IMG/VR virus record: IMGVR_UViG_3300045117_000169
Span: 1-22,768 of that record
Source of the DNA: a virus
Strand: one strand, 5' to 3'
DNA length: 22,768 bases
Within the stretch, counting starts at the first letter, position 1. Each line of letters opens with the position of its first letter. The notes beneath the pieces were generated by a model. That model made no database searches, had not been told where the DNA came from, and was given only the letters and a program-made list of their open reading frames with translations. This document shows positions 7,600-22,768 of the stretch, piece by piece. A program made the position numbers and the translations under genes.

Positions 7600-7608
7600 T
7601 AAAAAAAT

Positions 7609-7843: not shown

Positions 7844-7857
7844 AATTTACCCCTTTA

Positions 7858-7933
7858 TGGAGCGGCCAGGGGGATTTGAACCCACCAACTCCCAGTTTGG
7901 AAGACTGGAACTCTACCATTGAGTTATGGCCGC
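7858..7933 (-). tRNA. tRNA-Gly (anticodon UCC)
   Basis: Acceptor GCGGCCA pairs with TGGCCGC. D arm ACTC/GAGT, anticodon stem CCAGT/ACTGG with loop CTTCCAA giving anticodon TCC. T arm GTGGG/CCCCC with loop TTCAAAT has one T-C mismatch. The discriminator is T, as in tRNA-Gly, and CCA is encoded. Reads GGA. Confidence 0.94.
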
Positions 7934-7964
7934 CTATTTTTTGTTATCTATAGAAATATTTTAA

Positions 7965-8060
7965 TCATAAGTTGTTTTCTATAGCATATTTCATTTTATC
8001 ACAACATATTTTTTCTATTGATATAATATGAAACTTCTTTTTAATAATATTATACTTCAT
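7965..8060 (-). CDS. 31-aa small ORF, doubtful
   Basis: A short frame starting at ATG 8060, twelve bases after the macro-domain stop codon, with GAGA at a short distance upstream. The product is Lys/Ile-rich (MKYNIIKKKFHIISIEKICC...) and ends before tRNA-Gly. No family recognised. Its position and the weak ribosome binding site make it possible, not secure; otherwise this 138-base stretch holds nothing I can name. Confidence 0.35.
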   Translation of the reverse strand: MKYNIIKKKFHIISIEKICCDKMKYAIENNL

Positions 8061-8071
8061 AACGTCTCATT

Positions 8072-8506: not shown

Positions 8507-8509
8507 TTT

Positions 8510-8740
8510 TTATTTTTGTTGTAATGTAGTTTTTTTGTATTTAGTAGCCCTTCTATTACGGGGCCAACCAGAGACATCGTTGCGGTCGCCGCAGCCGCAC
8601 GTTGTTATATAGGCTTTACAGTCCAAACACCGCATTTCCGCACCCTCACAATACGGAGTTGAACAATCAAGACTAACATAGTAGGAAGTGCTCAAATTCT
8701 TATGTTTACACTTCACAACTTTTTTCCAAAATTTATCCAT
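8510..8740 (-). CDS. Cys-rich zinc-binding phage protein, 76 aa
   Basis: The pattern is CKHKN, then DCSTPYCEGAEMRCLDCKAYITTCGCG, then SGWPRNRR. The string C-S-T-P-Y-C-x-G-x-E-x-x-C-x-x-C and the CGCG-x-x-x-x-x-SGWP tail recur in small uncharacterised phage proteins (from memory). About eight cysteines and one histidine could bind two zinc ions. AAGGA lies about seven bases before ATG 8740. Function unknown; the basic C-terminus (KYKKTTLQQK) is compatible with nucleic-acid binding. Confidence 0.75.
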   Translation of the reverse strand: MDKFWKKVVKCKHKNLSTSYYVSLDCSTPYCEGAEMRCLDCKAYITTCGCGDRNDVSGWPRNRRATKYKKTTLQQK

Positions 8741-8878
8741 AAGACATCCTTAATGAATCAAAACTTTTATATATTCGGTTAATTTTAGCTATGTTCTATT
8801 TTTCCCATTTTAATTTGTGTCAATTTGTGATGTAAGCCTGTTAACCTTGTGGGTGTTTTTATCTCATTTTTCGTATCT

Positions 8879-8966
8879 TGGCGGCACGAGTAGGATTTGA
8901 ACCTACGGACGTTTTACCGTCAATGGTTTAGCAAACCATCGCCTTGAGCCCCTCGGCCATCGTGCC
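8879..8966 (-). tRNA. tRNA-Ser (anticodon GCU)
   Basis: Class II tRNA. Acceptor GGCACGA pairs with TCGTGCC, anticodon stem ATGGT/ACCAT with loop TTGCTAA giving anticodon GCT, a long variable arm GACGGTAAAACGTC, T arm GTAGG/CCTAC with loop TTCAAAT, discriminator G and encoded CCA. Reads AGC/AGU. Its first nucleotide (8966) is also the last base of the TAG stop codon of the gene upstream. Confidence 0.95.
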
Positions 8967-9184
8967 TATTTATTTATGATCATCTTTATGTAATCATCTG
9001 GTAATAAACCATAGATAAATGGTACTATATGATTACCATATTTACTCTCTATATATAGCCAATATAGTCCTTTATTGTCTATATATAGAGAGTAGTTGGC
9101 TAATTTGGCCGTTATATTATTTATTAACTTGCCATATATTCTTATTACACCCTTGACGGTATCAAAAGGTATAATCTTATACAC
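8966..9184 (-). CDS. 72-aa protein, unknown
   Basis: Starts with GTG at 9184, overlapping the stop of the preceding gene (GTGTATAA), so translation is likely coupled. The protein begins MYKIIPFDTVKGVIRIYGK and is rich in Tyr and Ile, with no cysteines and no clear membrane helix. It contains a 16-bp perfect inverted repeat (9043-9058/9079-9094) that encodes two similar phrases, YSLYI and LYIES. The TAG stop shares its last base with tRNA-Ser. No ribosome binding site is visible; function unknown. Confidence 0.6.
   Translation of the reverse strand: MYKIIPFDTVKGVIRIYGKLINNITAKLANYSLYIDNKGLYWLYIESKYGNHIVPFIYGLLPDDYIKMIINK
9043..9094. repeat. 16-bp perfect inverted repeat inside a coding sequence
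   Basis: Arms TACTCTCTATATATAG (9043-9058) and CTATATATAGAGAGTA (9079-9094), 20-nt loop. In the minus-strand mRNA it forms a hairpin about 80 bases upstream of tRNA-Ser. It could be an RNase III-type processing site or incidental. Confidence 0.6.
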
Positions 9185-9536
9185 GGCTTAACAATTCTCT
9201 TGCCCAACCAACTAACGTTGCCTGCTTAAAATAAGCCTGGCAGCGTTTAATGAACTTTACCAAGGTTTCAAACTCCAACCCGGCATATCCATTGTAGAAC
9301 CACGAAGGTGGAAATTTTATATCATCCAGAGACTTTTCTTTCTCTGCCCACCTTGCTGCTCTGGCATAGGCAACATCTTTACCCATTTCGGGGTTATAGT
9401 CTTCATACAGATTCCACTGTGCATAACCTATAATAATCTCATTAGTGTATGGATTAACAAACCCCACAAATGTAGTTTTTTTCAGGTTAGGCGTACGACC
9501 TACATTGCCTTTCACATACTGAAAAATCGTTTGCAT
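9177..9536 (-). CDS. Conserved-looking phage protein, 119 aa, unknown
   Basis: Strong initiation site AAAGGAGtttttATG at 9536, behind the promoter at 9556-9584. The sequence has a basic N-terminus with GNVGRTPNLKK, strands FVGFVNPYTNEIIIGYAQWNLYEDYNP, then a charged helix GKDVAYARAARWAEKEKSLDDI and a C-terminal helix FETLVKFIKRCQAYF. The sequence IGxxxWN...D.NPxxGxxxAxxRAxRWA is typical of small phage proteins of unknown role. No transmembrane segment or catalytic motif is recognised. Confidence 0.8.
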   Translation of the reverse strand: MQTIFQYVKGNVGRTPNLKKTTFVGFVNPYTNEIIIGYAQWNLYEDYNPEMGKDVAYARAARWAEKEKSLDDIKFPPSWFYNGYAGLEFETLVKFIKRCQAYFKQATLVGWARELLSRV

Positions 9537-9555
9537 AAAAACTCCTTTTTATTTT

Positions 9556-9584
9556 AGTATATCACAAAGAATTAACTTTGTAAA
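9556..9584 (-). promoter_or_regulatory. Sigma70-type promoter, extended -10
   Basis: Minus strand: -35 TTTACA (9584-9579), 17-bp spacer, -10 TATACT (9561-9556) preceded by TGA (extended -10). It lies 20 bases upstream of the start of the 119-aa gene, with its -35 inside the last codons of the nucleotidyltransferase gene. It probably also transcribes the tRNA genes further down. Confidence 0.6.
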
Positions 9585-10591
9585 CCATAGGTTTTAAGTA
9601 TCAGATTATCCACAAAATTTTGGTTCCAGTTGCTTATGAACTCACTGGATATATTAGAAATTTCATCTAAACCCGATACAATCAGGTTTTCAACTTCTGA
9701 CCAAGGATATTCCCCCTGTTTAATTTTAATGAGAATATCTGCTTCTGTTAATGGGAAAATAATTTTCCCATTAGTTAAAAGCTGTTTTGTCTGATAAATG
9801 GCCCGTATAGCATGAGAAATTGCTTTCCAATCAATACCTTTGTTTTGTTCTGCCAATTTGGCCCTATGTCCATATTCATTATAGGCTTTATCAATTCTTT
9901 GGTAAAATTCTCTCATCGAAATATTACCCTGATGAACTTTACCACAAACTATCAAACACCGATTATTACCAATTTCTTTGACAAAGCAATATGATTCATC
10001 GCCGAATATATCAACTATTGTATCAATCCAAAGAGAAAGTTTATTATTATCCCTTTTCTTGGATTTTAGGTAGTCTTCTTCAAAGTTATCACAAAACCAT
10101 TTGTGAATTTTTTTAAGAACTCCTAAACGACTTCCTTTGATACCATATTTTTTAGCTTGACCAATAGCATATTTTGTATATGCTAATTCCGATGTGGTAA
10201 TAAGTTTATCTGTATTATCAAAAAACAAGTCCATAGGATAATGTTTTTCGATAATACAGTTTTCGTTTGTATAAGAAAAGAGAACATCAAGAGCAATAGT
10301 TTCGCCCTTTCTTACCAATTCTATCCAGTATTGCAATGAATATAACTCAATATCAATGTCACTGGCATTGTTTTTTGTTACATTATCACTAGTTTGGTGA
10401 TTAATGGTTATAATTTTCCTACCAAGAACAAGATTTTCTAGACTTGGTAGAAAAATACCTTTATAGTCCAAATCACTATTTTCAGTGTTGGTACCGTAAA
10501 GATGTGAACCAAACTTCACCAAATAGATTAGTTTGCTTTTGTGTTTTTCACAAAGCTCGTAGACAATCTTCATGTTATTTTTTTTAGTCAC
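9572..10591 (-). CDS. Nucleotidyltransferase, RlaP-like (DNA polymerase beta superfamily)
   Basis: Protein of 339 aa (333 if ATG 10573 is used). The catalytic signature is VKFGSHLYGTNTENSDLDYKGIF: GS-x-x-YGT-x-x-x-x-SDxDxxG, with the two metal-binding aspartates of the pol-beta fold, and a third candidate Asp in SDIDIELYSL. This is the predicted nucleotidyltransferase family PF10127, whose member RlaP is tied to RNA repair. The substrate is not known from the sequence. A long helical C-terminal domain follows (HAIRAIYQTKQLL, ADILIKIKQGEYPWSEVENLI), as in that family. GTG 10591 and ATG 10573 both lack a strong ribosome binding site. Transcribed from the promoter at 10610-10638. Confidence 0.88.
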   Translation of the reverse strand: MTKKNNMKIVYELCEKHKSKLIYLVKFGSHLYGTNTENSDLDYKGIFLPSLENLVLGRKIITINHQTSDNVTKNNASDIDIELYSLQYWIELVRKGETIALDVLFSYTNENCIIEKHYPMDLFFDNTDKLITTSELAYTKYAIGQAKKYGIKGSRLGVLKKIHKWFCDNFEEDYLKSKKRDNNKLSLWIDTIVDIFGDESYCFVKEIGNNRCLIVCGKVHQGNISMREFYQRIDKAYNEYGHRAKLAEQNKGIDWKAISHAIRAIYQTKQLLTNGKIIFPLTEADILIKIKQGEYPWSEVENLIVSGLDEISNISSEFISNWNQNFVDNLILKTYGLQS

Positions 10592-11092: not shown

Positions 11093-13063
11093 ATGTTGAA
11101 CACAACAGACTTTAAAGAAATCATTTTGAAAATGAGAGAAGAAAAACCATCTATTAATTGGGAAGGAACTTTACTTGACTATTTACAGATGGTAAAGGAT
11201 AATCCTCAAATATCACAACTAGCAACTGCGCGAATGTTTAATGCTATTATGAAATATGGCACTTCGCCAATAGATAAAGATTATAAAGTTATGGGCTATG
11301 ATGACCTTGTATCTTATAACTACTTTAATGATAAGATATTTGGTACTTTGGAACCAATTCATGATTTAATGAAATTTCTGAAAGCTGGGGCACATAGAAC
11401 AGAAACTGGTAAAAGAATTTTATTGTTGGTTGGGCCGCCTAGTTCCGGTAAAAGCACCTCTGTGTACTGGTTAAAAAGGTGTTTAGAGAACGATACAACA
11501 CCAAAATATGTTATAAAAGGCTGTCCTATACACGAGGAGCCGTTAAACCTGATTCCAATAGAAGACAGGGCATATTGGGAAGAAGTTTTGGATGTGAAAA
11601 TAGAAGGCAAACCCTGCCCTGTTTGTCAATATAATTTGGACAATTTATATACCGACATTTCTGGCCATACAAAATGGGAAGAGGTGCCAGTAATCCAATT
11701 TAAGTTCTCAGAACATAGACGTAAGGGAATCGGGGTTTTCCAGCCTTCTGATCCGACTAGTCAGGACGAATCAGAATTGATCGGAAGGTTGAATTTATCT
11801 AAAGTGGCGCGATATGGTGATGGCGACCCAAATTCATATTTATTTGATGGTGCCTTGGAAGTCGCTAATGGTGGTATGCTTGACTTTATTGAATTGCTAA
11901 AATCAAACGAAAGATTGTTATATCTTCTTATAACAGTAGCACAAGAAAAACTTATCAAGTCACCTAGTGGTACATTTCCACAGATTTATATTGATAGTTT
12001 TTTGGTTGGTCATACAAATTTAACTGAGTACGAAAAATTCATTTCTCGTAAAGAAAACGAGGCACTACACGATAGAATCTATGTGGTAAAATGGCCCTGG
12101 AATCTCAAAGTCAGTAACGAAGTTCAAATTTACAATAAACTCATTAAGGAGTCTGAGTTTAAGAATATCCATATTGCTCCACATACACTAGAAATAGCAG
12201 CAAAGTTTGCTGTTGTAACTAGACTTGTTCCACATGCTCGTTGTTCATCATTGATGGAAAAGGTTAAAATTTACAATGATGAGTCTATATCAGAATTTAA
12301 AAAAGAAGAAATTGATATTAAAGATATAAAAAAGGATGGTCGCGAAAGAGGTGAGGGTATGTTTGGTATATCACCTAGATATATCATAAATTCACTTAAT
12401 ATCGCACTTGCACAAAAAGAGGATAAGAAATGTATATGTCCGGTTGACATTATCAATACACTTATATATGCTTTTGATAATCATATTGGTTATACACCAG
12501 AGGAGAAGGATAGGTTTTTATCCCTATTGAAAGGTGACAAAGAAAGTATTGTTAAAGAGTACGTTGATATAGCAAAACGTGAGGTTCAGCTTAGTTTTCT
12601 ACATGCTTATGATGAGCAGGCACAGGCACTATTCGAGAATTATATGCGGAATGCAGAGGCTTTTTGTAAAGGGGATAAGATTTATCACGAGCCTACAGGC
12701 GAGTATTCTGTGCCAGATGAAAAACTAATGCGGGGCATCGAAGAACTTTGTAACGTGCCCATCAATTCCAAAAAAGAATTTAGAAATGGTATTTTTGTCC
12801 ATAAATCTGCAGCATTAGAACGCGGGGAGCCTTTCACATTTGAAACCTTTAAGGTTATCAAGGAAGGTATTGAAAAAAAACTAATGCAGTCCCTCAAAGA
12901 TATAGTCAAGTTGACTTTGATCGATCCTATTAAACAACTTAATGAAAAAACAAAAAGACGTAGAAATGATGTAATTGAAAATCTTAAACAACGTGGCTAT
13001 TGTGATTCCTGTGCTAAGGTAATACTTACTTTTGTAGGAGAAATCCTTGCCAAAACAGAATAG
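11093..13063 (+). CDS. prkA: PrkA-family serine protein kinase (YeaG-like)
   Basis: Protein of 656 aa, close to E. coli YeaG (644). An AAA+-type N-terminal domain carries Walker A GPPSSGKST (114-122), a zinc-type CPVC insertion (175-178), the family signature VFQPSDPTSQDESELIG (215-231), and GGMLDFIELLK as the Walker B region. The C-terminal PrkA kinase domain shows the conserved ending GEYSVPDEKLMRGIEEL, then a basic-to-acidic helix EKKLMQSLKDIVKLT. In bacteria PrkA is a stress and stationary-phase Ser kinase encoded with yeaH and ycgB/spoVR. GAGG lies a few bases upstream of ATG 11093. The gene is intact and followed by yeaH 20 bases later. Confidence 0.95.
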   Translation: MLNTTDFKEIILKMREEKPSINWEGTLLDYLQMVKDNPQISQLATARMFNAIMKYGTSPIDKDYKVMGYDDLVSYNYFNDKIFGTLEPIHDLMKFLKAGAHRTETGKRILLLVGPPSSGKSTSVYWLKRCLENDTTPKYVIKGCPIHEEPLNLIPIEDRAYWEEVLDVKIEGKPCPVCQYNLDNLYTDISGHTKWEEVPVIQFKFSEHRRKGIGVFQPSDPTSQDESELIGRLNLSKVARYGDGDPNSYLFDGALEVANGGMLDFIELLKSNERLLYLLITVAQEKLIKSPSGTFPQIYIDSFLVGHTNLTEYEKFISRKENEALHDRIYVVKWPWNLKVSNEVQIYNKLIKESEFKNIHIAPHTLEIAAKFAVVTRLVPHARCSSLMEKVKIYNDESISEFKKEEIDIKDIKKDGRERGEGMFGISPRYIINSLNIALAQKEDKKCICPVDIINTLIYAFDNHIGYTPEEKDRFLSLLKGDKESIVKEYVDIAKREVQLSFLHAYDEQAQALFENYMRNAEAFCKGDKIYHEPTGEYSVPDEKLMRGIEELCNVPINSKKEFRNGIFVHKSAALERGEPFTFETFKVIKEGIEKKLMQSLKDIVKLTLIDPIKQLNEKTKRRRNDVIENLKQRGYCDSCAKVILTFVGEILAKTE

Positions 13064-13083
13064 TTGTTTGTGGAGTAAATTAA

Positions 13084-14376
13084 ATGCCAATTATTAATCA
13101 TGACCAGTGGAACATTTCCCAAAAAGGTCATAAAGATGTTGAAAGACACAGACAAAAAATAGATAAGGCCATTAGGGGATCTGTTGAAGATATTGTGGCC
13201 GAAGAATCTATTATTACCAAAAAACGCGAAGGTACAGTAAGGGTATCTGTACGTGGTATGCGCGATTATAGATTTATTCATAGCAATAATAATAGGAATA
13301 TGGGGGGTGTGGGCACAGGCAAGAGCAATCCTGGTGATATTATTGCCCGTAAATCTAAAAGGAATACCAGTAAACCTGGTGACCAAAAAGGTGAAGACTA
13401 CATGGAAGTGGAAATCGATATTGATTATCTACTTCGGATTATGTTTGATGATTTGGAACTACCATTCATCGAACAAAAAAATAAAGTTATCAAATTGGTA
13501 ACTACTAATTATAAAACAGAATTTATTGCTAAAACTGGTAAATATTCCCTTATTCATAAAAAAATGACACTGGTCGAAACAATCAAAAGAACGATGTGTG
13601 ATATTCACGAAATCATAAACACAACTAAATGTGATGAAAATGACGCCCATAGGGCATACATACAAAGTGATTATGATATAAAAAAGGCCATACAAATAAT
13701 TTTAGATGGACAAATTGATAAAACTATTTGTCCAGACATATTACCCAACATTGAAGATGATGATATTAGATTCAGACAAATACATAAAGAAGAGGAACCA
13801 ATCAGTAACGCGGTCATATTTTTTATGTGTGATACTTCTGGATCTATGGACACAAAAAAGAAGTACATTGCCAGAAGCTTGGCCTTTTGGATGTATGAAT
13901 TTATAAAATCCAAGTATAATTATGTAGATGTGAGATTTATTGTTCATACCACAGAAGCTAAACTTGTAAATGAAGATGAATTTTTTAAGCGTGGGGAAAG
14001 CGGCGGAACTTTATGTCATACAGCATTTGATCTACTGGAACATTTAATAGACACGGAATACCCTATTTCTGAGTATAATATCTATATTCAGTATTTTTCC
14101 GATGGTGAAGATTTTAACCCCGATGCTACTGTAAACAGCATCAAGAGATTACTTAATAGGGGAATAAATCTTATAGGTTATGCCGAAATAGTTCTGCAAA
14201 ACAGCGGGTGGAGTTCGCCGGAACTTCTAGGAAAGATGATAAAACAATTTGGTATGAAGGAAAAAAACAACGGCATCAAATTTTATCGTAGTGATTGGCG
14301 AATAATGGCTGGTATCATAGAAAATAAAACAAAAATTTATCCATATTTGAAAAATTTATTTAAGGTAGACAAATAA
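13084..14376 (+). CDS. yeaH: YeaH/YhbH-family protein (DUF444) with vWA domain
   Basis: Protein of 430 aa, about the length of E. coli YeaH. The N-terminus has the family pattern with a basic helix (NISQKGHKDVERHRQKIDKAI) and glycine-rich loop (NMGGVGTGKSNPGD). The C-terminal von Willebrand A domain has a MIDAS: DTSGSMD (D250, S252, S254), a glycine-Thr loop SGGTLCHTA, and YFSDGEDF. In bacteria YeaH is the partner of PrkA; its biochemical role is unknown, though vWA proteins often pair with AAA+ ATPases. GGAG lies eight bases before ATG 13084. The stop overlaps the next ATG (TAATG). Confidence 0.95.
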   Translation: MPIINHDQWNISQKGHKDVERHRQKIDKAIRGSVEDIVAEESIITKKREGTVRVSVRGMRDYRFIHSNNNRNMGGVGTGKSNPGDIIARKSKRNTSKPGDQKGEDYMEVEIDIDYLLRIMFDDLELPFIEQKNKVIKLVTTNYKTEFIAKTGKYSLIHKKMTLVETIKRTMCDIHEIINTTKCDENDAHRAYIQSDYDIKKAIQIILDGQIDKTICPDILPNIEDDDIRFRQIHKEEEPISNAVIFFMCDTSGSMDTKKKYIARSLAFWMYEFIKSKYNYVDVRFIVHTTEAKLVNEDEFFKRGESGGTLCHTAFDLLEHLIDTEYPISEYNIYIQYFSDGEDFNPDATVNSIKRLLNRGINLIGYAEIVLQNSGWSSPELLGKMIKQFGMKEKNNGIKFYRSDWRIMAGIIENKTKIYPYLKNLFKVDK

Positions 14377-14633: not shown

Positions 14634-16259
14634 TCATCTTATCACTATCTTGTACTTATTCTCGTATTTTTTAAATGCTTCGTATTGGTTTTTAGTAATA
14701 TACAAATCGCCACCAATACTAACATTATCTGGCAGTTCTTCTATTGGTGTATCAGATAAATGACAATTGCCCTTTACTACTAAATTCTTACCTATTTTTC
14801 TTATTTTACTATAAGATAAATTCAAATCGCTACCAATACTAACATCATCTGGTAGTTCCTCTATTGGTGTATAAGATAAATCACAATAACTTTTTACTAT
14901 TAAATTCTTACCTATTTTTCTTATTTTACTATAAGATAAATCCAAATTACTACCAATACTAACATCATCTTGTATTTCTTCTATTGGCGCATAAGATAAA
15001 TCACAATTACCTTTTATTATTAAATTCTTACCTATTTTCTTTATGCCACTTCCATATAAATACAAATTGCCACCAATATTAACATTATCTAGTAGTTCTT
15101 CTATTGGTGTATAAGATAAATAACAATTACCTTTTACTACTAAATTCTTACCTATTTTTCTTATTTTACTAAAATATAAATTCAAATCACCACCAATACT
15201 AACATTATCTGGTAGTTCTTCTATTGGTGTATAGCGTAAATCACAATAACCATTTACTACCAAATTCTTACCTATTTTCTTAATTTTACTATAAGATAAA
15301 TTCAAATCACCACCAATACTAACATTATCTGGTAGTTCTTCTATTGGTGTATAGCGTAAATCACAATAACCATTTACTACCAAATTCTTACCTATTTTCT
15401 TAATTTTACTATAAAATAAATTCAAATCACCACCAATACTAACATTATCTGGTAGTTCTTTTATTGGTGCATAAGATAAATCCAAATCACCTTTTACTAC
15501 TTTGGGTAAATTATCATAAGTATATAGTTTACTATCTATAAATATCATGTTTATATTAAGAGTATCTCGTACTTCATCATAATTACCACTATTAATAAAA
15601 TCTATTACATACTTATGGTACTTGGGAACTACTTCCTTATTACTATGTCCTTTTATTTGATATATAGTATTTTCTCTTTGTTCTATAGTTACATGTGGGT
15701 TGTTACTTGTATCTCGTAAACTATAAATAATTATTTGTTCACTAATTACATAATCACAGTATCCACCAACACAGTGTCCCATTAGTTTACCTTCACGTTC
15801 CAGGGCTTGTTTAGTTAATAGTCTTACCCAGAACATACCATTGGGATATTTTTTAATTAGTTTAACGTCACTACTATCTTCATCACTACTAGCTTTCTTA
15901 ATTAGTTGTCTAGTCCATTCTTCACTCTTACTAATAGCATCCAGTACTGATATTCTAGATATATCACCAGGCAATGTTCTTAAGTAATCTACTACATGAT
16001 GTATTTTGTCTTTGAATTCTCTAGTAATAGTTATTTGGTACAATTCTGTTGATTTCTTAGCCCATAGTGGTGCATTTTTAGGCAACTGTGTTACTAGTTG
16101 TACATTATCATACTTGTTTATTAAGTAGTTCTTAAGATTGGATTTTAACCATTTTACTACATTGGGATTATTAACTGTCTGGGACAAATCTACTATAAAT
16201 TGGTCTATAGTATCTAAATTATAGATATTACGTTCTAGTAGGTAGTTTAGTAGTCTCAT
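14634..16259 (-). CDS. Tagged protein with PcfJ-like domain and 20-residue beta-repeat solenoid, 541 aa
   Basis: Begins with the tag MRLLNYLLE (residues 1-9) seen on other proteins here. Residues 150-225 hold a PcfJ-like segment: LEREGKLMGHCVGGYCD, IIIYSLRD, NPHVTIEQ, QIKG, KYHKYVIDFI. Residues 251 to about 521 are 13-14 units of 20 aa alternating between ELPDNVSIGGDLNLSYSKI and KKIGKNLVVNGYCDLRYTPI types (40-aa period), probably a beta-solenoid. The last part is YENKYKIVIR. Starts over the stop of the 497-aa gene (CTATGA), with no ribosome binding site. The first 127 bp recur inverted at 22642-22768. Function unknown; I infer an internal head protein from the tag. Confidence 0.85.
   Translation of the reverse strand: MRLLNYLLERNIYNLDTIDQFIVDLSQTVNNPNVVKWLKSNLKNYLINKYDNVQLVTQLPKNAPLWAKKSTELYQITITREFKDKIHHVVDYLRTLPGDISRISVLDAISKSEEWTRQLIKKASSDEDSSDVKLIKKYPNGMFWVRLLTKQALEREGKLMGHCVGGYCDYVISEQIIIYSLRDTSNNPHVTIEQRENTIYQIKGHSNKEVVPKYHKYVIDFINSGNYDEVRDTLNINMIFIDSKLYTYDNLPKVVKGDLDLSYAPIKELPDNVSIGGDLNLFYSKIKKIGKNLVVNGYCDLRYTPIEELPDNVSIGGDLNLSYSKIKKIGKNLVVNGYCDLRYTPIEELPDNVSIGGDLNLYFSKIRKIGKNLVVKGNCYLSYTPIEELLDNVNIGGNLYLYGSGIKKIGKNLIIKGNCDLSYAPIEEIQDDVSIGSNLDLSYSKIRKIGKNLIVKSYCDLSYTPIEELPDDVSIGSDLNLSYSKIRKIGKNLVVKGNCHLSDTPIEELPDNVSIGGDLYITKNQYEAFKKYENKYKIVIR
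14697..15509 (-). repeat. Tandem 120-bp repeats encoding the beta-solenoid of the 541-aa protein
   Basis: About seven 120-bp units. Two neighbours, 15181-15300 and 15301-15420, differ at one base, so expansion is recent or the units are being homogenised. Confidence 0.9.
16133..16259 (-). repeat. Inverted copy of the sequence at 22642-22768 (125 of 127 bases identical)
   Basis: The 5' end of the 541-aa gene matches the start of the plus-strand gene at the window edge, in opposite orientation. Identity starts exactly at the ATG; the two differences (at 16167 and 16140) are third-codon and synonymous. The true end of the repeat lies outside the window. Confidence 0.95.
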
Positions 16260-17749
16260 AGTATTACTATCTTGTACTTATTCTCGTATTTTTTAAATGT
16301 TTTGTATTGGTTTTTACTAATGATTAAATTACCACCAATATTAACATTATCTGGTAGTTCTTCTATTGGTGTACGACGTAAATTGCAATTGCCCTTTACT
16401 ACTAAATTCTTACCTATTTTTCTTATTTTACTATAAAATAAATCCAAATTGCCACCAATACTAACATTATCTAGTATTTCTTCTATTGGTGTACTAGATA
16501 AACTACAATTACCATTTACTACTAAATTCTTACCTATTTTCTTGATATTGCTATAAGATAAATACAAATTGCCGACAACATTAACATTATCTGGTAGTTC
16601 TTCTATTGGTGTATGAGATAAATCACAACTACTTTTTACTACTAAATTCTTACCTATTTTCTTAATATTACTAAAAGATAAATCCAAATTACCACCAATA
16701 CTAACATTATCTGGTAGTTCTTCTATTGGTGTATAGCGTAAATCACAATAACCATTTACTACCAAATTCTTACCTATTTTTCTTATTTTACTATAAGATA
16801 AATTCAAACTACCACCAATACTAACATTATCTGGTAGTTCTTCTATTGGTAATTGAGATAAATCACAATTACCTTTTACTACTAAATTCTTACCTATTTT
16901 TCTTATTTTACTATTATATAAATCCAAATTACCATTAATAGTTATATTATCTGGGACTTCAGTTATATCACTAAAAGATAAATCCAAATCATCATTTATT
17001 ACCATACTACTTACTAATTTGATATTAGTAATAGTTCTACGTTCAAATCCAGTTGTATCAACGTCTCTATGTATTTTAAATACACCTTGTTTATTACTTT
17101 GAATACCATCTAACCACTTTTGTACTGTTTTACTAAAACCGGGTATATTACCCACATAACATCTATCACTAGCCACTAGATATACTTCACTAGTATTAGT
17201 ATCTACATATGGTTTAATAGCTATTCTAGCTATTGGCTCGTTTATGTTTTTATCGTTATCCCTAATAAGATATGCTACAATGGTACCGGCTTCTATTTCT
17301 AGTGGTATTTTGTTTTTACCTGCGTCTTTTTTGATTAAGTCCATACAACTAGTCCATCCTCTATTAGTACTCATACTAGCTATATCATAGGGATGTCTGG
17401 ATATTACTACCAGTACATTATCTGTGTTTAGTTCTTTAGTATTATTATATAGTTTTAGCATATCTGTATTACCACTTTTTTGTAGTACTTTACCTATTCT
17501 TATTTCATTGTTGCTATTTGATTTCTTACATAATCCTTTTTTGTAGTTGGTTATTGTGTAACCAAGTGATAGTAAATAGTCTCTAATACCCTTAGGTGGT
17601 TCTATTTCTATTTCGCCCTCAAATGGTAGGTATAGCCTGTACTTATTACCAAATATTGAATCATATCTAGATTTGTCCCAATTTTTAGAATATTTTCTAG
17701 CTATTGATACTGGTAATGCTTCTATTAGGTAGTTTAGTAGTCTACTCAT
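16256..17749 (-). CDS. Tagged protein with beta-repeat solenoid, 497 aa
   Basis: Tag MSRLLNYLIE at residues 1-10. The N-terminal domain (to about 240) has RHPYDIASMSTNRGWTSCMDL, then GTIVAYLIRDND, then EPIARIAIKPY, then WLDGI. This order (Cys motif, YLIRD strand, PIARIAI strand) parallels the PcfJ-like segment of the 541-aa protein, so the two domains may share a fold. From about residue 246 there are 12 repeats of 20 aa of the same two types as in the next gene, and the same end, YENKYKIVI. It overlaps the stop of the gp14-like gene upstream and the start of the 541-aa gene downstream. No signal peptide. Function unknown. Confidence 0.85.
   Translation of the reverse strand: MSRLLNYLIEALPVSIARKYSKNWDKSRYDSIFGNKYRLYLPFEGEIEIEPPKGIRDYLLSLGYTITNYKKGLCKKSNSNNEIRIGKVLQKSGNTDMLKLYNNTKELNTDNVLVVISRHPYDIASMSTNRGWTSCMDLIKKDAGKNKIPLEIEAGTIVAYLIRDNDKNINEPIARIAIKPYVDTNTSEVYLVASDRCYVGNIPGFSKTVQKWLDGIQSNKQGVFKIHRDVDTTGFERRTITNIKLVSSMVINDDLDLSFSDITEVPDNITINGNLDLYNSKIRKIGKNLVVKGNCDLSQLPIEELPDNVSIGGSLNLSYSKIRKIGKNLVVNGYCDLRYTPIEELPDNVSIGGNLDLSFSNIKKIGKNLVVKSSCDLSHTPIEELPDNVNVVGNLYLSYSNIKKIGKNLVVNGNCSLSSTPIEEILDNVSIGGNLDLFYSKIRKIGKNLVVKGNCNLRRTPIEELPDNVNIGGNLIISKNQYKTFKKYENKYKIVIL
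16319..17014 (-). repeat. Tandem 120-bp repeats encoding the beta-solenoid of the 497-aa protein
   Basis: About six 120-bp units related to those at 14697-15509. A stretch near 16692-16780 matches the 15181-15400 units of the neighbouring gene almost exactly over about 90 bp, pointing to recombination or gene conversion between the two genes. Confidence 0.88.
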
Positions 17750-18440
17750 ATCCGTAAATATCTCTTATATTCGGCAATATATCAGTATAATCATCTATTA
17801 TGTTTGATTGTTCTTCTATCCAGGCATTATCACCATAAGCTGATATAGGAACACTATCAATATATTCACTGGTATCAACAATACTGCCATCCTCACTTGT
17901 TCTAGATGGCCTAAGAATAAGATCCCAAGAAAATTTTTTAGTCTGAAATATATTATCTTCAGCATCAATTTCTACCACTTCATAAAATAAATTATCATTC
18001 CAGGGAACTCTAATAATATCACCAATAACAGGTGCAGATGCACTAGTATCACGGGTAAAAGTGTATTTTGGTAATCTCATCTTTTCTATAATTTCATCAG
18101 AATACATACCAAAAGTATTAAATATTGCCGGCTCTTCACTGGGCTGATATATAACTTTAGTTGCATATGGCCCAAGATATTGTTTGTTCTGGTCTTCTCC
18201 ATATAAAGAATCAAAATCGGGTGATAGAATATAATAATATATTAATATGCCATATATATCACATAGTTCTACTATACTACTTTCAAATAATATATGTTCC
18301 TGATTAGTATATTCTATATCATAAACTGACCATTCTGGTACTGTATCAGTCAATAAGCTCATTTTTTCTATATATCTTCCATTCTTTTTTAAGAAACTCA
18401 ATAAATGATTCTTTATAAGAATCATAAAACTACTGGTCAA
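17742..18440 (-). CDS. Neck / head-completion protein, T4 gp14-like
   Basis: Protein of 232 aa (TTG 18440) or 227 aa (ATG 18425, starting MILIKNHLL). The layout follows T4 gp14 as I remember it: ESSIVELCDIYGILIYYY, DFDSLYGED, an FNTFGMYSDE segment, PVIGDIIRVPWNDNLFYEVVEID, IFQTKKFSWDLIL. gp14 joins gp13 in closing the packaged T4 head and connecting the tail. Context agrees: the gp13-like gene lies two genes upstream on the same strand. The start is unclear and no ribosome binding site is seen. A short frame beginning MLKYDWMKLDM ends a few bases upstream in another frame, so a frameshift near 18440 is possible. The 3' end overlaps the tagged 497-aa gene. Confidence 0.65.
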   Translation of the reverse strand: MTSSFMILIKNHLLSFLKKNGRYIEKMSLLTDTVPEWSVYDIEYTNQEHILFESSIVELCDIYGILIYYYILSPDFDSLYGEDQNKQYLGPYATKVIYQPSEEPAIFNTFGMYSDEIIEKMRLPKYTFTRDTSASAPVIGDIIRVPWNDNLFYEVVEIDAEDNIFQTKKFSWDLILRPSRTSEDGSIVDTSEYIDSVPISAYGDNAWIEEQSNIIDDYTDILPNIRDIYGYE

Positions 18441-18465
18441 GTCAAGACATGTCTAATTTCATCCA

Positions 18466-18534
18466 GTCATATTTTAACATTATAATTATCAGTGGTAGTC
18501 ACATATATTTCTTTTAGATATTGTAATAATCTCA
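18466..18534 (-). pseudogene. Remnant of a tagged gene (22 codons)
   Basis: ATG 18534 overlaps the stop of the 403-aa gene (AAAATGA). The frame reads MRLLQYLKEIYVTTTDNYN, then ends at TGA at 18468-18466. The first 13 residues match the start of the 403-aa gene (MRLLQYLNEKYVT) with two changes. It looks like the stump of a deleted duplicate, or a minimal tag peptide. Confidence 0.6.
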
Positions 18535-19743
18535 TTTTACATAGTTTCTTATTTCTTCGTATAAATCGTTATTAAACCATGTAAGTAACCACTTACCATT
18601 TGCCTTATCTATACCATGATAATCAACATACTTCTTAGATATAGGGTCATAATCCAAATCTACAGACAATTTGCTACCTTTTTTAAAGGCGACACCCCAC
18701 AAAAATCCCTTTCCGTCTGGATAAGAATCTTGAGGTATAAGGTTTTCATCTTCAAGGGCAATAGAAGCTTCGCCATGTGTTACTGTATATTTCCATATAT
18801 ATAATTTTTGTTTTTTGACATCTATAAGATATCTAACAGAATCATCACCATCCAAAGATTCTATTAATTCTTTTCTAGTTGGATTGACAAATATAGTACA
18901 TCTAAACGTACTTGTCGTGTATTCTTCATTTATATATTGTAAAATATCTGGATAATCTTTTATATTTACATTATCTTCTTGTCTACCTATAGATATCCAC
19001 TGTATTTTTAATTTATTATTTTTAAGTAATAATCCACCTTTAAGAAAATTATTACCAGCATAATCTATATGTGGTGATATCTTATAATGTAAATAATTAG
19101 AATCCCACACATACATTTCTTTTTTATCTATAAGATAAAAAAATCTTAGTTTTTGTTCATATGCTTGTCTAATAAGTTTATATATTTCGCTTCTTGTGGG
19201 GTTTTTAAATATTTCGGCATATTCTGTTTTATTATATCTGATATTTTTAAAATATTCTTCAGATAAATTATATCTCTTTTTGGTATATTCCATTACTGTT
19301 TTTATATATGGTTTGGTAAAATATATATTAAGCCACGAATCATTTTCCTTAGTCCATTTACAATAAACAACGCTACGGTCATCACCAGATACCCTAATAG
19401 CACTGACATCACTATCAATAAATTCTAGTTTTCCACCTACAACATCTGCCTCACCATAGGAAAATCTATCTTTAGCATCATCATCATACATATTACTAAC
19501 ATCTATGATATTCTCTTTATATAATTTATCCATTACACTAGTATGAATATTGGCATAAGCGTGCCATATGTATAAATTTTTCTTTTTAAAGTCAACAATA
19601 TATCTAATATTGCCTTTGCATTTACTGATTTCTTTTTTATCGGGATTGACAAACACCGGAGCATAATCATCATATAATGTTTCTTTGTGATAATTATATA
19701 TATCTGTTACATATTTTTCATTAAGATATTGTAGCAATCTCAT
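18532..19743 (-). CDS. Tagged triple-repeat protein, 403 aa
   Basis: Tag MRLLQYLNE (residues 1-9), then three copies of a module of the type FVNPxxKEL...VRYLIDxKKxxLYIW...H: VFVNPDKKEISKCKGNIRY and IVDFKKKNLYIWHA; then IFKNPTRSEIYKL and FYLIDKKEMYVWDS; then IFVNPTRKELIESLDGDDS and RYLIDVKKQKLYIWKY. Module 3 is preceded by ILQYINEEYTT, which looks like a second, internal copy of the tag region, so the protein may be a fusion of two tagged genes. Such FVNP/YIW modules occur in other large phages, from memory; function unknown. The start overlaps the gp13-like stop (ATGA). Confidence 0.85.
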   Translation of the reverse strand: MRLLQYLNEKYVTDIYNYHKETLYDDYAPVFVNPDKKEISKCKGNIRYIVDFKKKNLYIWHAYANIHTSVMDKLYKENIIDVSNMYDDDAKDRFSYGEADVVGGKLEFIDSDVSAIRVSGDDRSVVYCKWTKENDSWLNIYFTKPYIKTVMEYTKKRYNLSEEYFKNIRYNKTEYAEIFKNPTRSEIYKLIRQAYEQKLRFFYLIDKKEMYVWDSNYLHYKISPHIDYAGNNFLKGGLLLKNNKLKIQWISIGRQEDNVNIKDYPDILQYINEEYTTSTFRCTIFVNPTRKELIESLDGDDSVRYLIDVKKQKLYIWKYTVTHGEASIALEDENLIPQDSYPDGKGFLWGVAFKKGSKLSVDLDYDPISKKYVDYHGIDKANGKWLLTWFNNDLYEEIRNYVK

Positions 19744-20555
19744 CCCATGTATATTCCATAGCCCTTATATGTTTCTTTTTTATCTAGATCATCAGAAAGC
19801 TTCTCCATTTCTTCCCTAGCTTCACTTACTAAACTATCACCATCAAGACTTGTACCCTGATTACCAAGAGCAGAAAAATTGGCAAATTTTCTTCTTATGA
19901 GACCCAAAGTATGTTTGGTCATTGCTAACGCATAATCTTCTACCCATTGTGACTCATATAGTTCATTATCAACACTATCTAAATCTTCCCAATCATCTTC
20001 TAAAGTAGAACCGGAAATCATTACCGCTTTAATAAGAACAAATCCGGGCGAATCATAAGTATAATCGCCTATTACAAGAGCATTGCCTGATGGTGGAGGT
20101 GGTTGGATCTCAAGCTTATTTGCCTTTTTGTGATATTTAAAGTTGTAGGCATCGGGAGTATATCTATCCAGAGTTTCTAAGAAATCTCGTGCTATATGAT
20201 AACCAATCAAGGTGTACCCATTATTTGACGCTGGATTAAGCAAACTAAACATGCCCTGAGAATAAAAATAATTTTCTAATGTAAAAAGAGTATTTATTCC
20301 GCCTGTATTTACTGCATCAGCAGTATAAGATATTACTTCAACAACTCCACCTGGCATATCGTAAAGATGTTGACCAGCAGATAACATCTGAGTAAAAAAC
20401 ACTTCTTGTGTCGCATTACCAAAAGCGTACTTAATAAATTTAGTTCTGGCATATTCTATATTATCTTCTATCTGGTCATCATTAATTTCCAGTTTTATCA
20501 TTGGATAACCCAAACGTCTTTTTATTCTGATTACCAGTTCACTCTTTTCAGACAT
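19740..20555 (-). CDS. Neck protein, T4 gp13-like
   Basis: Protein of 271 aa. The start LVIRIKRRLGYPMIKLEINDDQIEDNI matches the opening of T4 gp13 as I recall it ([23 protein letters not shown]). The C-terminal helix bundle, QWVEDYALAMTKHTLGLIRRKF, then GTSLDGDSLVSEAREEMEKL, follows gp13's [21 protein letters not shown] and TIDGQRLIEEARLEKEAL. gp13 with gp14 completes the head after packaging and connects it to the tail. CGGAG lies six bases before ATG 20555. The 3' end overlaps the tagged 403-aa gene, which separates it from the gp14-like gene; in T4 the two are adjacent. Confidence 0.78.
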   Translation of the reverse strand: MSEKSELVIRIKRRLGYPMIKLEINDDQIEDNIEYARTKFIKYAFGNATQEVFFTQMLSAGQHLYDMPGGVVEVISYTADAVNTGGINTLFTLENYFYSQGMFSLLNPASNNGYTLIGYHIARDFLETLDRYTPDAYNFKYHKKANKLEIQPPPPSGNALVIGDYTYDSPGFVLIKAVMISGSTLEDDWEDLDSVDNELYESQWVEDYALAMTKHTLGLIRRKFANFSALGNQGTSLDGDSLVSEAREEMEKLSDDLDKKETYKGYGIYMG

Positions 20556-20558
20556 AAT

Positions 20559-20990
20559 TTACTCCGATATGTAAAATTCTTCAGTCTCATAAGTATATGG
20601 CACTTCTCTAATTCCAAACAACTTATATACAGCTATTATTCTAATCTTTCCATAAGATTTTGATACATTTTGTGGTAATGAAAGTGTACCTATAACGTTT
20701 GTTTCTTTAATACACAAATTGTCATATTGAGCATCATAATTATATATTCGTTTATTTCTTAACACTAATTGTTTGCTTACTATAGCTGGTATATCATAGT
20801 GCTTTTTATAATTTACATTATATTCAACTATACCATTAGGACTAACAGTTTTTTGTGGATTTATAATAGTAATAGGTAATTGCACATCAATAATGTTAAA
20901 TGGATATAAAAAAATAAATAATGCAATTATAGCAAATAACACAAACAATATACTACTAGTTGTAAGTATAGTTGTAATTATTCTTTTCAT
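20559..20990 (-). CDS. Membrane-anchored protein with beta-rich domain, 143 aa
   Basis: One N-terminal transmembrane helix (about residues 10-30, LFVLFAIIALFIFLYPF) after a short basic start (MKR), with no lipobox or clear signal-peptidase site, so a type II anchor is likely. The rest is beta-rich: PNGIVEYNVNYKKHYDIPAIVSKQLVLRN..., VSKSYGKIRIIAVYKL, VPYTYETEEFYI. The fold suggests an Ig-like or beta-sandwich domain outside the cytoplasm. Phage proteins with YPF after the helix are familiar to me but unnamed. It lies just upstream of the gp13-like gene (three bases between stop and start). No clear ribosome binding site. Confidence 0.75.
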   Translation of the reverse strand: MKRIITTILTTSSILFVLFAIIALFIFLYPFNIIDVQLPITIINPQKTVSPNGIVEYNVNYKKHYDIPAIVSKQLVLRNKRIYNYDAQYDNLCIKETNVIGTLSLPQNVSKSYGKIRIIAVYKLFGIREVPYTYETEEFYISE

Positions 20991-21037
20991 ATTATATTGT
21001 ATTTTTTAAAATATGCATATAATTTTTTCATGCACTT

Positions 21038-21139
21038 TCAATAATTTTTATAAAATAAATCAAATTGGGCAGATATTTTTTTAAATGAGTCTGATTTTGG
21101 GGCTTTTATTCTACGTATAGTTAATATCATATTTGCCAT
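21038..21139 (-). CDS. 33-aa small ORF, doubtful
   Basis: Frame from ATG 21139 (MANMILTIRRIKAPKSDS...) to TGA 21040-21038. The frame is open further upstream to about 21190 (NRIYVTNLDRYIK before the ATG) with no standard start, so it may be the end of a frameshifted gene. No ribosome binding site. The stretch 20991-21037 holds nothing I can name. Confidence 0.3.
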   Translation of the reverse strand: MANMILTIRRIKAPKSDSFKKISAQFDLFYKNY

Positions 21140-21141
21140 TT

Positions 21142-21306
21142 TTATATATCTATCAAGATTTGTAACATATATTCTATTAATTGTGTTGTTTTTTCATCCC
21201 CTTTCACATATCTCTTAAAATCTATAGTTTTGGTTTTTTCTTCTCGTGACATCTTTTTCATTTTAGTTGGTACTTTTATACATAATTTATTATTCTTTAC
21301 TACCAT
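21142..21306 (-). CDS. 54-aa small basic ORF, possible
   Basis: ATG 21306 overlaps the end of the 67-aa gene in another frame. The product is Lys-rich and charged (MVVKNNKLCIKVPTKMKKMSREE...) and ends EYMLQILIDI. An internal ATG at 21261 is possible. No ribosome binding site is seen for either. It is the only long frame in the interval, but support is weak. Confidence 0.4.
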   Translation of the reverse strand: MVVKNNKLCIKVPTKMKKMSREEKTKTIDFKRYVKGDEKTTQLIEYMLQILIDI

Positions 21307-21493
21307 GTTTGAAAGATATAATAGTTTCTAATTTTACCAACCTTTCAGAATTCTCTTGAGATTGTTTTTTTACATCTTTCATATCAGAATCCATAACTTC
21401 AAATTTTTTATAAACCCCTCTTAATACAAATAGAGATAATCCTGCAAGCACACTGGTAATAGCCGTAAAAATAACTTGAAATTCAGTACTCAT
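21290..21493 (-). CDS. Small membrane protein with coiled coil, 67 aa
   Basis: Transmembrane helix at about residues 8-26 (IFTAITSVLAGLSLFVLRGVY), then a charged amphipathic helix (KKFEVMDSDMKDVKKQ, then ENSERLVKLETII). Size and layout resemble small phage membrane proteins near lysis genes, such as inner-membrane accessory or XhlA-like factors, but with reversed order (membrane helix first). The ATG overlaps the stop of the 53-aa gene (ATGA). Function unknown. Confidence 0.7.
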   Translation of the reverse strand: MSTEFQVIFTAITSVLAGLSLFVLRGVYKKFEVMDSDMKDVKKQSQENSERLVKLETIISFKHGSKE

Positions 21494-21651
21494 TTTTTTT
21501 CTTTTTCTTCTGATGGTTCCAGTTGACCATTCTTAAGATTTTCCTCTAGTTGTAATACTTTATTATATAATTGTATGGATTTACCAAGATATATACTATA
21601 CATTATGCCACTGGCATAAGATAAAAGTTGAATACAAACATTAAAATCCAT
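21490..21651 (-). CDS. 53-aa small membrane-associated protein
   Basis: ATG 21651 has GAGGA about five bases upstream, and TATAAATA on the minus strand lies about 16 bases upstream (21674-21667). The protein starts MDFNVCIQLLSYASGIMYSIYLGKSIQLY (quoted in part: hydrophobic residues 5-22) and turns into a charged tail ending EEKEKK. One weak membrane segment then a short coil. It is the first gene of the leftward small-protein group, coupled to the 67-aa gene by ATGA. Function unknown. Confidence 0.65.
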   Translation of the reverse strand: MDFNVCIQLLSYASGIMYSIYLGKSIQLYNKVLQLEENLKNGQLEPSEEKEKK

Positions 21652-21666
21652 TACATTCCTCATGTA

Positions 21667-21678
21667 TATTTATAAATA
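21667..21678. promoter_or_regulatory. Divergent overlapping late promoters (TATTTATAAATA palindrome)
   Basis: A 12-bp palindrome carries TATAAATA on the plus strand (21671-21678) and on the minus strand (21674-21667), in the 67-bp gap between divergent gene groups. Each is at a sensible distance from the first gene: 21719 on plus, 21651 on minus. T4 late promoters consist of just this box. Confidence 0.6.
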
Positions 21679-21718
21679 TATTAAGATTATCTATATTTAT
21701 AAAAAATAGGAGTGTTAC

Positions 21719-22024
21719 ATGAAAAAATTATTAGAATTTATAACAGATCCTAGTAGTAAAGAATTAAGTGCAAGTAGATTATGTTTACTATTAGTTATAG
21801 TTATTCTTGTACCAACAATGGTATATCTGGTAGGTAAAAATATCTGGCCCGCTAAAGAAGCAGTAAGTCTACTCACATCGGCTCTAGCATCATTAGCTGG
21901 TATTTATGGTCTAAATAGTGCTGCGGGAGCATGGTCTAAAAGAAAATTTGAAATTAAAGAAGAAGTTGATGTATATGAGAAAAAAAGTAAACATTTACAG
22001 GAGTTAAATGACGAGGTGAAATGA
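21719..22024 (+). CDS. Holin-like protein with two membrane segments, 101 aa
   Basis: GGAG lies seven bases before ATG 21719. Two hydrophobic helices, about residues 20-39 (RLCLLLVIVILVPTMVYLVG) and 49-66 (VSLLTSALASLAGIYGLNSA), are followed by a charged coiled tail (KRKFEIKEEVDVYEKKSKH). Size, topology and position immediately before a spanin pair fit a holin or holin-like pore protein; T4 holin (T) is different, so this is by context. Holins form inner-membrane lesions at the end of infection. No endolysin gene is in the window. Confidence 0.65.
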   Translation: MKKLLEFITDPSSKELSASRLCLLLVIVILVPTMVYLVGKNIWPAKEAVSLLTSALASLAGIYGLNSAAGAWSKRKFEIKEEVDVYEKKSKHLQELNDEVK

Positions 22025-22025
22025 C

Positions 22026-22346
22026 ATGTTAGAAATAATATCATTCCTAAAAAGCACTGGTACACTTATTATTATGGGCGCAATAGCATTATCAGCATTC
22101 TTTTTTAAATTTTATTCATGGTGGAAAAATAGAAAAATAGAACATCTAGAAAAAACTGTAGAGAGGCAAAATAATGCTATAGAAATATATGAAGCTAAAG
22201 ATAAAATACATAGAAAGGATAATGAAATAGATAATAAAGTAGATAGTAAAATAGATGCTACAGAGGATAAATTAGGCAGAGGAGAACAAAGTGATGCAGA
22301 AGTTGTTAGTAATGCTCTGAATGATTTTTTTGGGGAAAAAAAATGA
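22026..22346 (+). CDS. Inner-membrane spanin-like protein (Rz-type), 106 aa
   Basis: N-terminal transmembrane helix (about residues 12-30, TLIIMGAIALSAFFFKFYSWW) then a long charged coiled coil (KIEHLEKTVERQNNAIEIYEAK, then KDNEIDNKVDSKIDATEDK). This is the i-spanin layout: inner-membrane anchor plus periplasmic coil that joins an outer-membrane lipoprotein to fuse the membranes. GAGG precedes the ATG by about ten bases; it starts just after the holin stop. The 3' end overlaps the next gene (ATGA). The pair with the following lipoprotein makes the spanin call stronger than sequence alone. Confidence 0.7.
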   Translation: MLEIISFLKSTGTLIIMGAIALSAFFFKFYSWWKNRKIEHLEKTVERQNNAIEIYEAKDKIHRKDNEIDNKVDSKIDATEDKLGRGEQSDAEVVSNALNDFFGEKK

Positions 22347-22645
22347 AAAAAATAATATCCATATTGTGTATGATTGTCATATTATCCAGCTGTTCAACTT
22401 TTAAATCTTATTTTTGGGGCGAAAAGAAAGTTATTATGCCAACTATAGAACTTCCCAAAAAACCAGATAAACCAAACATTAAATCTAAAGTTTTTAAAGA
22501 AGAACATGAGTTTTATGTGGGATATTTAATGAGTGATAGTATGAAATTATATAAATATTTAGTGGAATCGGAAGGGTATGCCGATAAATTAGAATTTCGG
22601 ATACAGGTTCAAAATGAGATAATTAAACACTGGGGAGAGAAATGA
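22343..22645 (+). CDS. Outer-membrane lipoprotein spanin-like protein (Rz1-type), 100 aa
   Basis: A signal peptide MKKIISILCMIVILSSC with lipobox LSSC predicts lipidation at Cys17. The mature part starts STFKSYFWGEKK, then a proline-rich stretch ELPKKPDKPNIKSKVFKEE, as in Rz1-like o-spanins, then a C-terminal helix. Follows the i-spanin with ATGA overlap. It would anchor in the outer membrane and bind the i-spanin, so the host is Gram-negative. The stop overlaps the ATG of the tagged gene at 22642. Confidence 0.75.
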   Translation: MKKIISILCMIVILSSCSTFKSYFWGEKKVIMPTIELPKKPDKPNIKSKVFKEEHEFYVGYLMSDSMKLYKYLVESEGYADKLEFRIQVQNEIIKHWGEK

Positions 22646-22768
22646 GACTACTAAACTACCTACTAGAACGTAATATCTATAATTTAGATACTATAGACCA
22701 ATTTATAGTAGATTTGTCCCAGACAGTTAATAACCCCAATGTAGTAAAATGGTTAAAATCTAATCTTA
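22642..22768 (+). CDS. Second copy of the tagged 541-aa-type gene (5' end only)
   Basis: Starts ATGAGACTACTAAACTACC over the spanin stop (AAATGA) and runs to the window edge. The 42 visible residues (MRLLNYLLERNIYNLDTI ... KWLKSNL) are identical to the start of the 541-aa protein at 14634-16259. The nucleotide identity is 125/127 with two synonymous changes. It could be a full duplicate or diverge beyond the window; the sequence here cannot tell. Expression with the lysis genes (late) is likely. Confidence 0.85.
   Translation, partial: MRLLNYLLERNIYNLDTIDQFIVDLSQTVNNPNVVKWLKSNL
22642..22768 (+). repeat. Inverted partner of 16133-16259
   Basis: 125/127 identical to the reverse complement of 16259-16133, and extends to at least the window edge. 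The pair encloses about 6.4 kb holding the neck genes, small membrane genes and lysis genes. Confidence 0.95.

Follow-up and report, generated by a model that had tools for sequence, protein, structure and literature searches.

The protein Alt of phage T4 alters the RNA polymerase of the host, and the T4 internal protein IPI blocks a restriction enzyme. Alt and the internal proteins IPI, IPII and IPIII form the closest described counterpart of the genes studied here, which share the N-terminal start M(S)RLLxYLxE, in the following termed the tag. These genes lie on the virus record IMGVR_UViG_3300045117_000169, whose complete 22,768 bases were analysed and are referred to as the window. The tag is very likely a capsid-targeting sequence of the T4 type. 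Passages of the published work on T-even phages describe diverse internal proteins with a conserved targeting sequence (PMC3012670, PMC9026906). For the IPIII tag, residues 4 and 7 are assigned to targeting and residues 8 and 10 to processing, and the protease gp21 cuts after L/I-x-E (PMC9026906, in part). When the host produces IPIII that lacks the tag, the protein nonetheless counteracts a block in one E. coli strain (PMC9391042).

Like the propeptides of IPI, IPII, IPIII and Alt, which are processed by gp21, the tag comprises about ten N-terminal residues with the same spacing of hydrophobic and aromatic positions and an L/I-x-E end; in both cases the bodies are unrelated, the phage possesses an S77 protease, and an ART-like protein (Alt in T4) is among the cargoes. 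The differences concern the consensus (M[RK][LF]xxYLxE here, MKTYQEFIAE in T4), the far larger number of tagged genes (up to 25 on one contig) and the bodies. In the giant phages SPN3US and phiKZ, head proteins are ejected after cleavage behind a glutamate by a gp21 relative, and two diverged paralogues of SPN3US are identical in their first 15 residues; according to the same partial source, however, most propeptides are longer than 100 residues and the sites read A-x-E (PMC5694885), whereas we find a tag of 9-10 residues on unrelated bodies. Phages and conjugative elements encode polyvalent proteins, whose ART and metallopeptidase-type domains are predicted to accompany the DNA, and an ART-PolyVal-like protein is also found among the tagged ones; as far as the relevant passages of PMC5512222 go, polyvalent proteins are single large multidomain proteins, in contrast to the many separate small proteins with one tag described here. 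Injection is known or predicted for ARTs and also for other effectors (PMC5512222, PMC7824862). In the open-access PMC literature, no paper was found on the variant forms of the tag (dialects), the gene arrays or the cargo families reported below. Thus, the mechanism is known from T4, and the dialects, arrays and cargo set appear to be new.

The window contains three full genes with the start M(S)RLL[NQ]YLxE (541, 497 and 403 residues), one remnant of 22 codons and one copy cut by the contig end. All five tags lie where the preliminary description had placed them, at 16259 (-), 17749 (-), 19743 (-), 18535 (-) and 22642 (+); its start coordinate for the family, 16256, leaves out the body of the 541-residue gene (14634-16259). 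The features are:

14634..16259, minus strand: open reading frame of the tagged 541-residue protein; tag MRLLNYLLE (codons 16233-16259); PcfJ domain at residues 137-217, then leucine-rich repeats (LRR)
16256..17749, minus strand: open reading frame of the tagged 497-residue protein; tag MSRLLNYLIE (codons 17720-17749); N-domain of no recognised kind, then LRR
17742..18440, minus strand: untagged gp14-like neck protein (head closure Hc2); phrog_679, 6.1e-5
18467..18535, minus strand: 22-codon remnant with the start MRLLQYLKE (tag codons 18509-18535)
18532..19743, minus strand: open reading frame of the tagged 403-residue protein; tag MRLLQYLNE (codons 19717-19743); three FVNP-type units
19740..20555, minus strand: untagged gp13-like neck protein (head-tail adaptor Ad2); phrog_211, 1.8e-22
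21719..22645, plus strand: genes of a small membrane protein, an Rz-like spanin and lipoprotein type; phrog_812, 2e-6; phrog_739, 0.0069
22642..22768, plus strand: first 127 bases of a tagged copy, MRLLNYLLE (tag codons 22642-22668), ending at the contig end

The order on the minus strand is gp13-like gene, tagged 403-residue gene, tagged remnant, gp14-like gene, tagged 497-residue gene and tagged 541-residue gene. The stop of the gp13-like gene overlaps the start of the 403-residue gene by 4 bases, the gp14-like stop overlaps the start of the 497-residue gene by 8 bases, and the stop of the latter overlaps the start of the 541-residue gene by 4 bases. These overlaps suggest that the tagged genes probably share a late transcript with virion genes. 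Three of the 27 gene models of the window fit the general tag pattern, compared to a mean of 0.02 with shuffled N-termini.

The bodies differ as originally proposed: PcfJ plus LRR, another domain plus LRR, and a triple FVNP repeat. The solenoid that had been described for the 541- and 497-residue proteins is present in both; it has to be specified as a leucine-rich repeat with 20-residue turns. The PcfJ assignment of the 541-residue protein (PF14284, 4e-11) reaches 43.4 bits and thus exceeds the Pfam cut-off of 25; the same Pfam scan gave an LRR_3 match of 4.4e-6. The repeats resemble PDB entry 8z5u, an LRR protein of the flagellar motor, both in sequence (6.3e-21) and in fold (E-value 3.4e-4); weaker fold matches are other LRR proteins. 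An AlphaFold2 model of this protein has a mean predicted local distance difference test (pLDDT) value of 84.8, with values below 50 for residues 1-13, which would suit a detachable N-terminus. The LRR half is common to the 541- and 497-residue proteins (75-83% identity) and the PcfJ match is confined to the former; the 497-residue protein matches phrog_17056 of unknown function (3.1e-5). The 403-residue body has no BLASTP match to either of them, no Pfam match above cut-off and no PHROG match, and its AlphaFold2 model is poor (mean pLDDT 39), so that no fold was assigned. Scans for related loci with the 403-residue protein and with the N-domain of the 497-residue protein returned near-identical contigs only.

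The plus-strand copy at 22642 differs from 16259..16133 at two of 127 bases, and the similarity begins at the ATG. A reading as a short independent gene was rejected, as the copy is a repeat of which the contig end leaves 127 bases. Five stretches on four records matched a 60-base probe taken from the beginning of the 541-residue gene. Contig G007 (IMGVR_UViG_3300024333_000010, 39,795 bases) is 100% identical to the last 127 bases of the window and has a different upstream sequence. As the same 127 bases stand behind different upstream sequences, this gene start occupies at least three loci: 16259 and 22642 in the window and 586 in G007. Record 3300045146 (G008) starts at the same repeat and is 100% identical to G007 460-22,995; the numbering of this record is similar to that of 3300045118 and 3300045016, both near-twins of the window. 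From the shared 127-base repeat we infer that the window and G007 are very probably parts of one phage genome, the assembly of which broke at the repeat. G007 contributes the following features:

minus strand: end of an LRR gene
minus strand: tagged 415-residue protein with an HEIAH motif (by eye) and an FVNP unit
minus strand: tagged 393-residue protein, ART-PolyVal-like (1e-6), with an FVNP unit
minus strand: tagged 95-residue protein
minus strand: S77 (gp21-type) protease, 2.8e-21; phrog_207, 5.8e-47
minus strand: 129-residue protein
minus strand: T4-type scaffold protein; PF25623, 2.6e-6
minus strand: capsid protein Gp23, 4.7e-99
further along: tagged 172-residue protein with a sub-threshold match (0.073) to the 'internal head protein' family phrog_2667
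further along: tagged repeat-only protein akin to the LRR part of the window proteins
copy of the tagged 541-residue gene, interrupted by the contig end

Thus, tagged genes of this contig adjoin a protease of the gp21 type, which the preliminary description had named as a check. With 30.0 bits against PF18760 (Pfam cut-off 31.2), the 393-residue protein is ART-like and not a member of the ART-PolyVal family; it has no match in phage records and none among PDB sequences.

An S77 protease was also found in five of the six tag-bearing records longer than 160 kb (G003, G009, G010, G012 and G019, not G020), as well as in T4, Agrobacterium phage Atu_ph07 and contig G005. In one set of 31 records, most of them short fragments, six contained S77 and seven Gp23. 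An additional search with phrog_207 matched none of six records and no control either, and is therefore uninformative. Six of eight proteases carry a similar motif near their own N-terminus, namely LITE (G003, G007, G019) or LIE (G009, G012, T4). The cut places in the capsid proteins, inferred except for T4, are WLQE/AT (G019), YLVE/TA (G012), VLNE/TA (G009), LLE/AS (G010), ISE/AV (G003) and FLTE/AE (T4). The S77 gene of G003 (L007 3-902; G003 198919-200508) is one frame of 576 residues with the protease parts about 310 codons apart, and its insert looks intein-like by eye; in the 299-residue part scanned, Pfam detected the protease only.

The preliminary description had further suggested the tag as a search key, and it served as one. 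Two tag patterns at the DNA level hit 27 and 15 stretches in viral contigs, many of them with several tagged genes and some with none. For the first pattern, 25 of 27 loci have tagged starts of at least 50 codons (L066 and L074 do not). The second gave ten new loci: L077, L081, L082 and L083 are tagged, L079 has the loose form only, L080 shows the tag only deep inside a long frame, and L075, L076, L078 and L084 lack a tagged start. The nine tag-bearing contigs comprise 1,997 gene models, of which 91 are tagged, compared to about 2.0 expected from shuffled N-termini; note that these contigs were selected for having a tag, such that at least one hit per contig is not independent. At internal start codons of these contigs, the pattern occurred in 6 of 14,202 cases. 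The individual values are 12 of 457 (G012), 3 of 411 (G009), 9 of 254 (G020), 10 of 83 (G015), 25 of 230 (G019), 9 of 224 (G010), 14 of 269 (G003), 6 of 42 (G007) and 3 of 27 (window); the sum leaves out T4, G005 and the small locus of G018 (2 of 9). The complete G018 has 260 models, two of which match the loose form; its hit with the DNA pattern does not coincide with a gene-model start. As a control, 315 gene models in the neighbourhood of PcfJ genes from other viruses were screened, and none is tagged. G003 is a 204-kb relative that was reached via the gp13-like protein (47% identity), for which 721 phage records match (tblastn, E ≤ 0.01).

Among the 91 tags, counting from the terminal glutamate (position 0), R or K stands at -7 in 90 cases and L, F, I, V or Y at -6 in all 91, followed by Y/F at -3, L/I at -2 and E at 0; the classes at -3, -2 and 0 were imposed by the pattern, and the spacing was free, with 1-3 residues allowed before Y/F. 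The near-fixed form is R/K, a hydrophobic residue, two free residues, Y/F, L/I, any residue and E, the latter being residue 9 in 70 of 91 tags. This spacing equals that of the T4 IPIII tag; in the T4 record, ipII and ipIII start with MKTYQEFIAE. Tags on unrelated bodies are more similar within genomes (0.548) than between them (0.475), a difference reached in none of 1,000 label shuffles.

With respect to their bodies, the 91 tagged models fall into 63 BLASTP clusters; common descent of the bodies was considered as an explanation and rejected for most of them. A Pfam scan of 81 of the 91 proteins, omitting nine paralogues of one G012 family and the cut G007 copy, revealed 34 families at E ≤ 0.01. 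Among the best 25 of these 34 are tRNA nucleotidyltransferase/poly(A) polymerase with three members, zeta-toxin/AAA_33 kinase and DUF5661 with two each, and, with one each, a cREC receiver, PcfJ, DnaJ, ART-PolyVal, HAD/5'-nucleotidase types, a zincin-type M78 and others. The tRNA nucleotidyltransferase body matches 350 phage records; among the 25 matches listed, the alignment begins at query residue 15-47 and thus behind the tag, as would be expected were the tag an addition. A scan of the same 81 proteins against a defence library gave five families with one member each (E-values 1.5e-5 to 8.8e-4), which were not used as evidence. Some further observations concern individual cargoes. One zincin-type protein has a weak match (0.0015) to a Pfam family that is named after a toxin. 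The 360-kb contig G012 (280556-298251 and 347019-347627; L102, L105) carries an expanded cargo family of eleven homologous tagged proteins, each about 200 residues long. The unit FVNP..kE...RFIvD.k.k.lYVW....H is common to five tagged proteins that differ elsewhere; it occurs in the window (18532-19743), L034 (16938-19423), L144 (2262-2678) and L082 (105-587). The tagged array of G003 contains an ATP-grasp-like protein with the variant start MKIIQEHRYTLKE, which was missed by the tag pattern.

Related starts were also found in other phages. In other viral contigs, 65 of 80 retained PcfJ homologues were inspected, and 57 have a complete N-terminus; six of these 57 possess a tag-like start of another form (KWKQYLQEA type), and LRR-like repeats occur in none. 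The start KW[KR]x[YF][LV]xEA of these PcfJ proteins (L159, L160, L163, L180, L183, L189) is possibly a further dialect. A tagged ART-like protein of G003 gave a chance-level match only with PDB sequences; among 50,697 phage records it matches only the two entries of the cultured phage Atu_ph07, where the alignment starts at residue 1 and covers 62% of the protein. In Atu_ph07, the ten ART-like genes gp053-gp062 all start with M[KR]W[NEQHD][QD]L[TNI]E. Mass spectrometry identified 131 virion proteins of this phage, 29 of them in coding sequences (CDS) 31-76, as stated in the part of PMC6102473 that concerns the virion; gp053-gp062 lie inside this block, and the gene numbers of the record agree with those of that paper (tail sheath gp132 and gp140).

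In a T4-type scheme, the tagged proteins would bind late in infection to the scaffold core of the growing prohead via the hydrophobic and aromatic residues of the tag. The S77 protease would cut after the glutamate of the tag while processing core and shell, and the freed bodies would remain inside the head until they pass into the next host together with the DNA. There, host proteins, RNA or defence systems might be their targets within the first minutes; that the cargoes may be takeover or anti-defence effectors had already been suggested in the preliminary description. More generally, it is likely that large T4-like phages pack sets of individually encoded effectors, as many as about 25 per genome, into the head by means of phage-specific dialects, that the bodies were captured by acquisition of a tag, and that much of the injected set can be predicted from sequence. 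The dialects would comprise M[RK]LLxYLxE, MKFKQYLxE, MRLKRYLTE and perhaps M[KR]WxxLxE of Atu_ph07 and the KWKQYLQEA type; the captured bodies would comprise tRNA nucleotidyltransferase, zeta-like kinase, DnaJ, cREC receiver, HAD nucleotidase, zincin, ART, PcfJ-LRR and FVNP proteins. If this is true, a single short N-terminal pattern makes it possible to pick out early-injected proteins of the class of Alt and IPI among the unannotated genes of uncultured T4-like phages, and it assigns a place and time of action to dozens of unstudied domains.

The sequence-based checks support the T4-type capsid-targeting function that had been proposed for the tag; several findings weigh against it. G020 (189 kb, nine tagged genes) has neither an S77 nor a Gp23 match. 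It holds relatives of terminase, neck and sheath genes, and because Gp23 is lacking as well, the record looks incomplete; it is more probable that the head region is missing from the record than that the phage lacks it. The protease of G010 has IITE only at residue 22, and that of G005 shows nothing close at its start. The capsid protein of the phage represented by the window and G007 has only VDE/SG at the expected place, which is not of the form L-x-E. In G009, only the above-mentioned three genes are tagged. The pattern misses the internal proteins of T4 (0 of 228 models) and finds nothing in G005 (0 of 150) although S77 is present, so that S77 does not imply this dialect; a looser pattern detects ipII and ipIII together with several chance hits. 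The bodies of the ten Atu_ph07 proteins look alike (YRG region, by eye), and therefore common descent may explain part of their shared start; in addition, the 29 virion proteins are a count for the block as a whole.

Finally, the residue after the tag glutamate varies. This missing constraint would also fit a tag that targets to the head but stays on, or that is removed on some cargoes only, and the processing of SPN3US ejection proteins is, in the relevant part of PMC5694885, not a fixed feature; we nevertheless consider such a tag improbable, as the L/I-x-E end is kept and the inferred capsid cut sites of several relatives have the same form. The position of the window's tagged genes among gp13- and gp14-like neck genes could signal binding to another virion or assembly part (portal, neck, tail), the proteins being associated with neck or tail or delivered other than via the head core. 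Elsewhere, however, tagged genes adjoin the protease (G007) or form arrays far from neck genes (in G003, 12 of 14 are located at 18.5-36 kb and the neck genes at 182-190 kb), and the form of the tag matches the T4 head signal; this alternative is accordingly even less probable. A recombination anchor, i.e. DNA kept alike for the swapping of bodies and without a role of the peptide, would account for near-identical copies such as window 16259 and 22642 and for the codons that are mostly common to the tags of the 541- and 497-residue genes. Codons for the same tag residue, however, differ in 879 of 2,191 within-record pairs (40%), where 50% are expected from codon usage (eight records, homologous bodies included); most tags are thus alike as protein and not as DNA, and we regard an anchor as highly improbable. 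The same low probability is given to another intracellular signal that would, for instance, direct import into a phage nucleus or be recognised by a chaperone or a host protease. Short N-terminal signals of such kinds exist, but the T4-type head genes of this phage and the T4 head-signal form of its tag argue against this alternative, although no search aimed at phage-nucleus genes was made.

Some observations concern the surroundings of the tagged genes. In G003, a run of small membrane and lipoprotein genes lies ahead of the tagged array, as in the window (layout by eye), and an M15-like endolysin (by eye) is located between these genes and the array (L022-L023; G003 16753-22057). At 11093-14376, the window contains a PrkA-type serine kinase (PF08298, 9.6e-103; PF06798, 8.1e-63) with a DUF444 protein (6.5e-79) behind it; this pair occurs in bacteria and is found here on a phage. 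RNA-repair and nucleotide-signal genes occupy 4811-10591; among these are an RNA ligase (2e-27), an RlaP-type polymerase (1.1e-14), a macro domain just below cut-off (3.2e-4), a dual-specificity phosphatase and a DHH phosphoesterase, both below cut-off, and three tRNA genes. A family-B DNA polymerase, recognised by eye, is cut by the contig start (1-1653); the near-twin records are of similar length (22,743 and 22,556 bases), and the break at this position may therefore be systematic.

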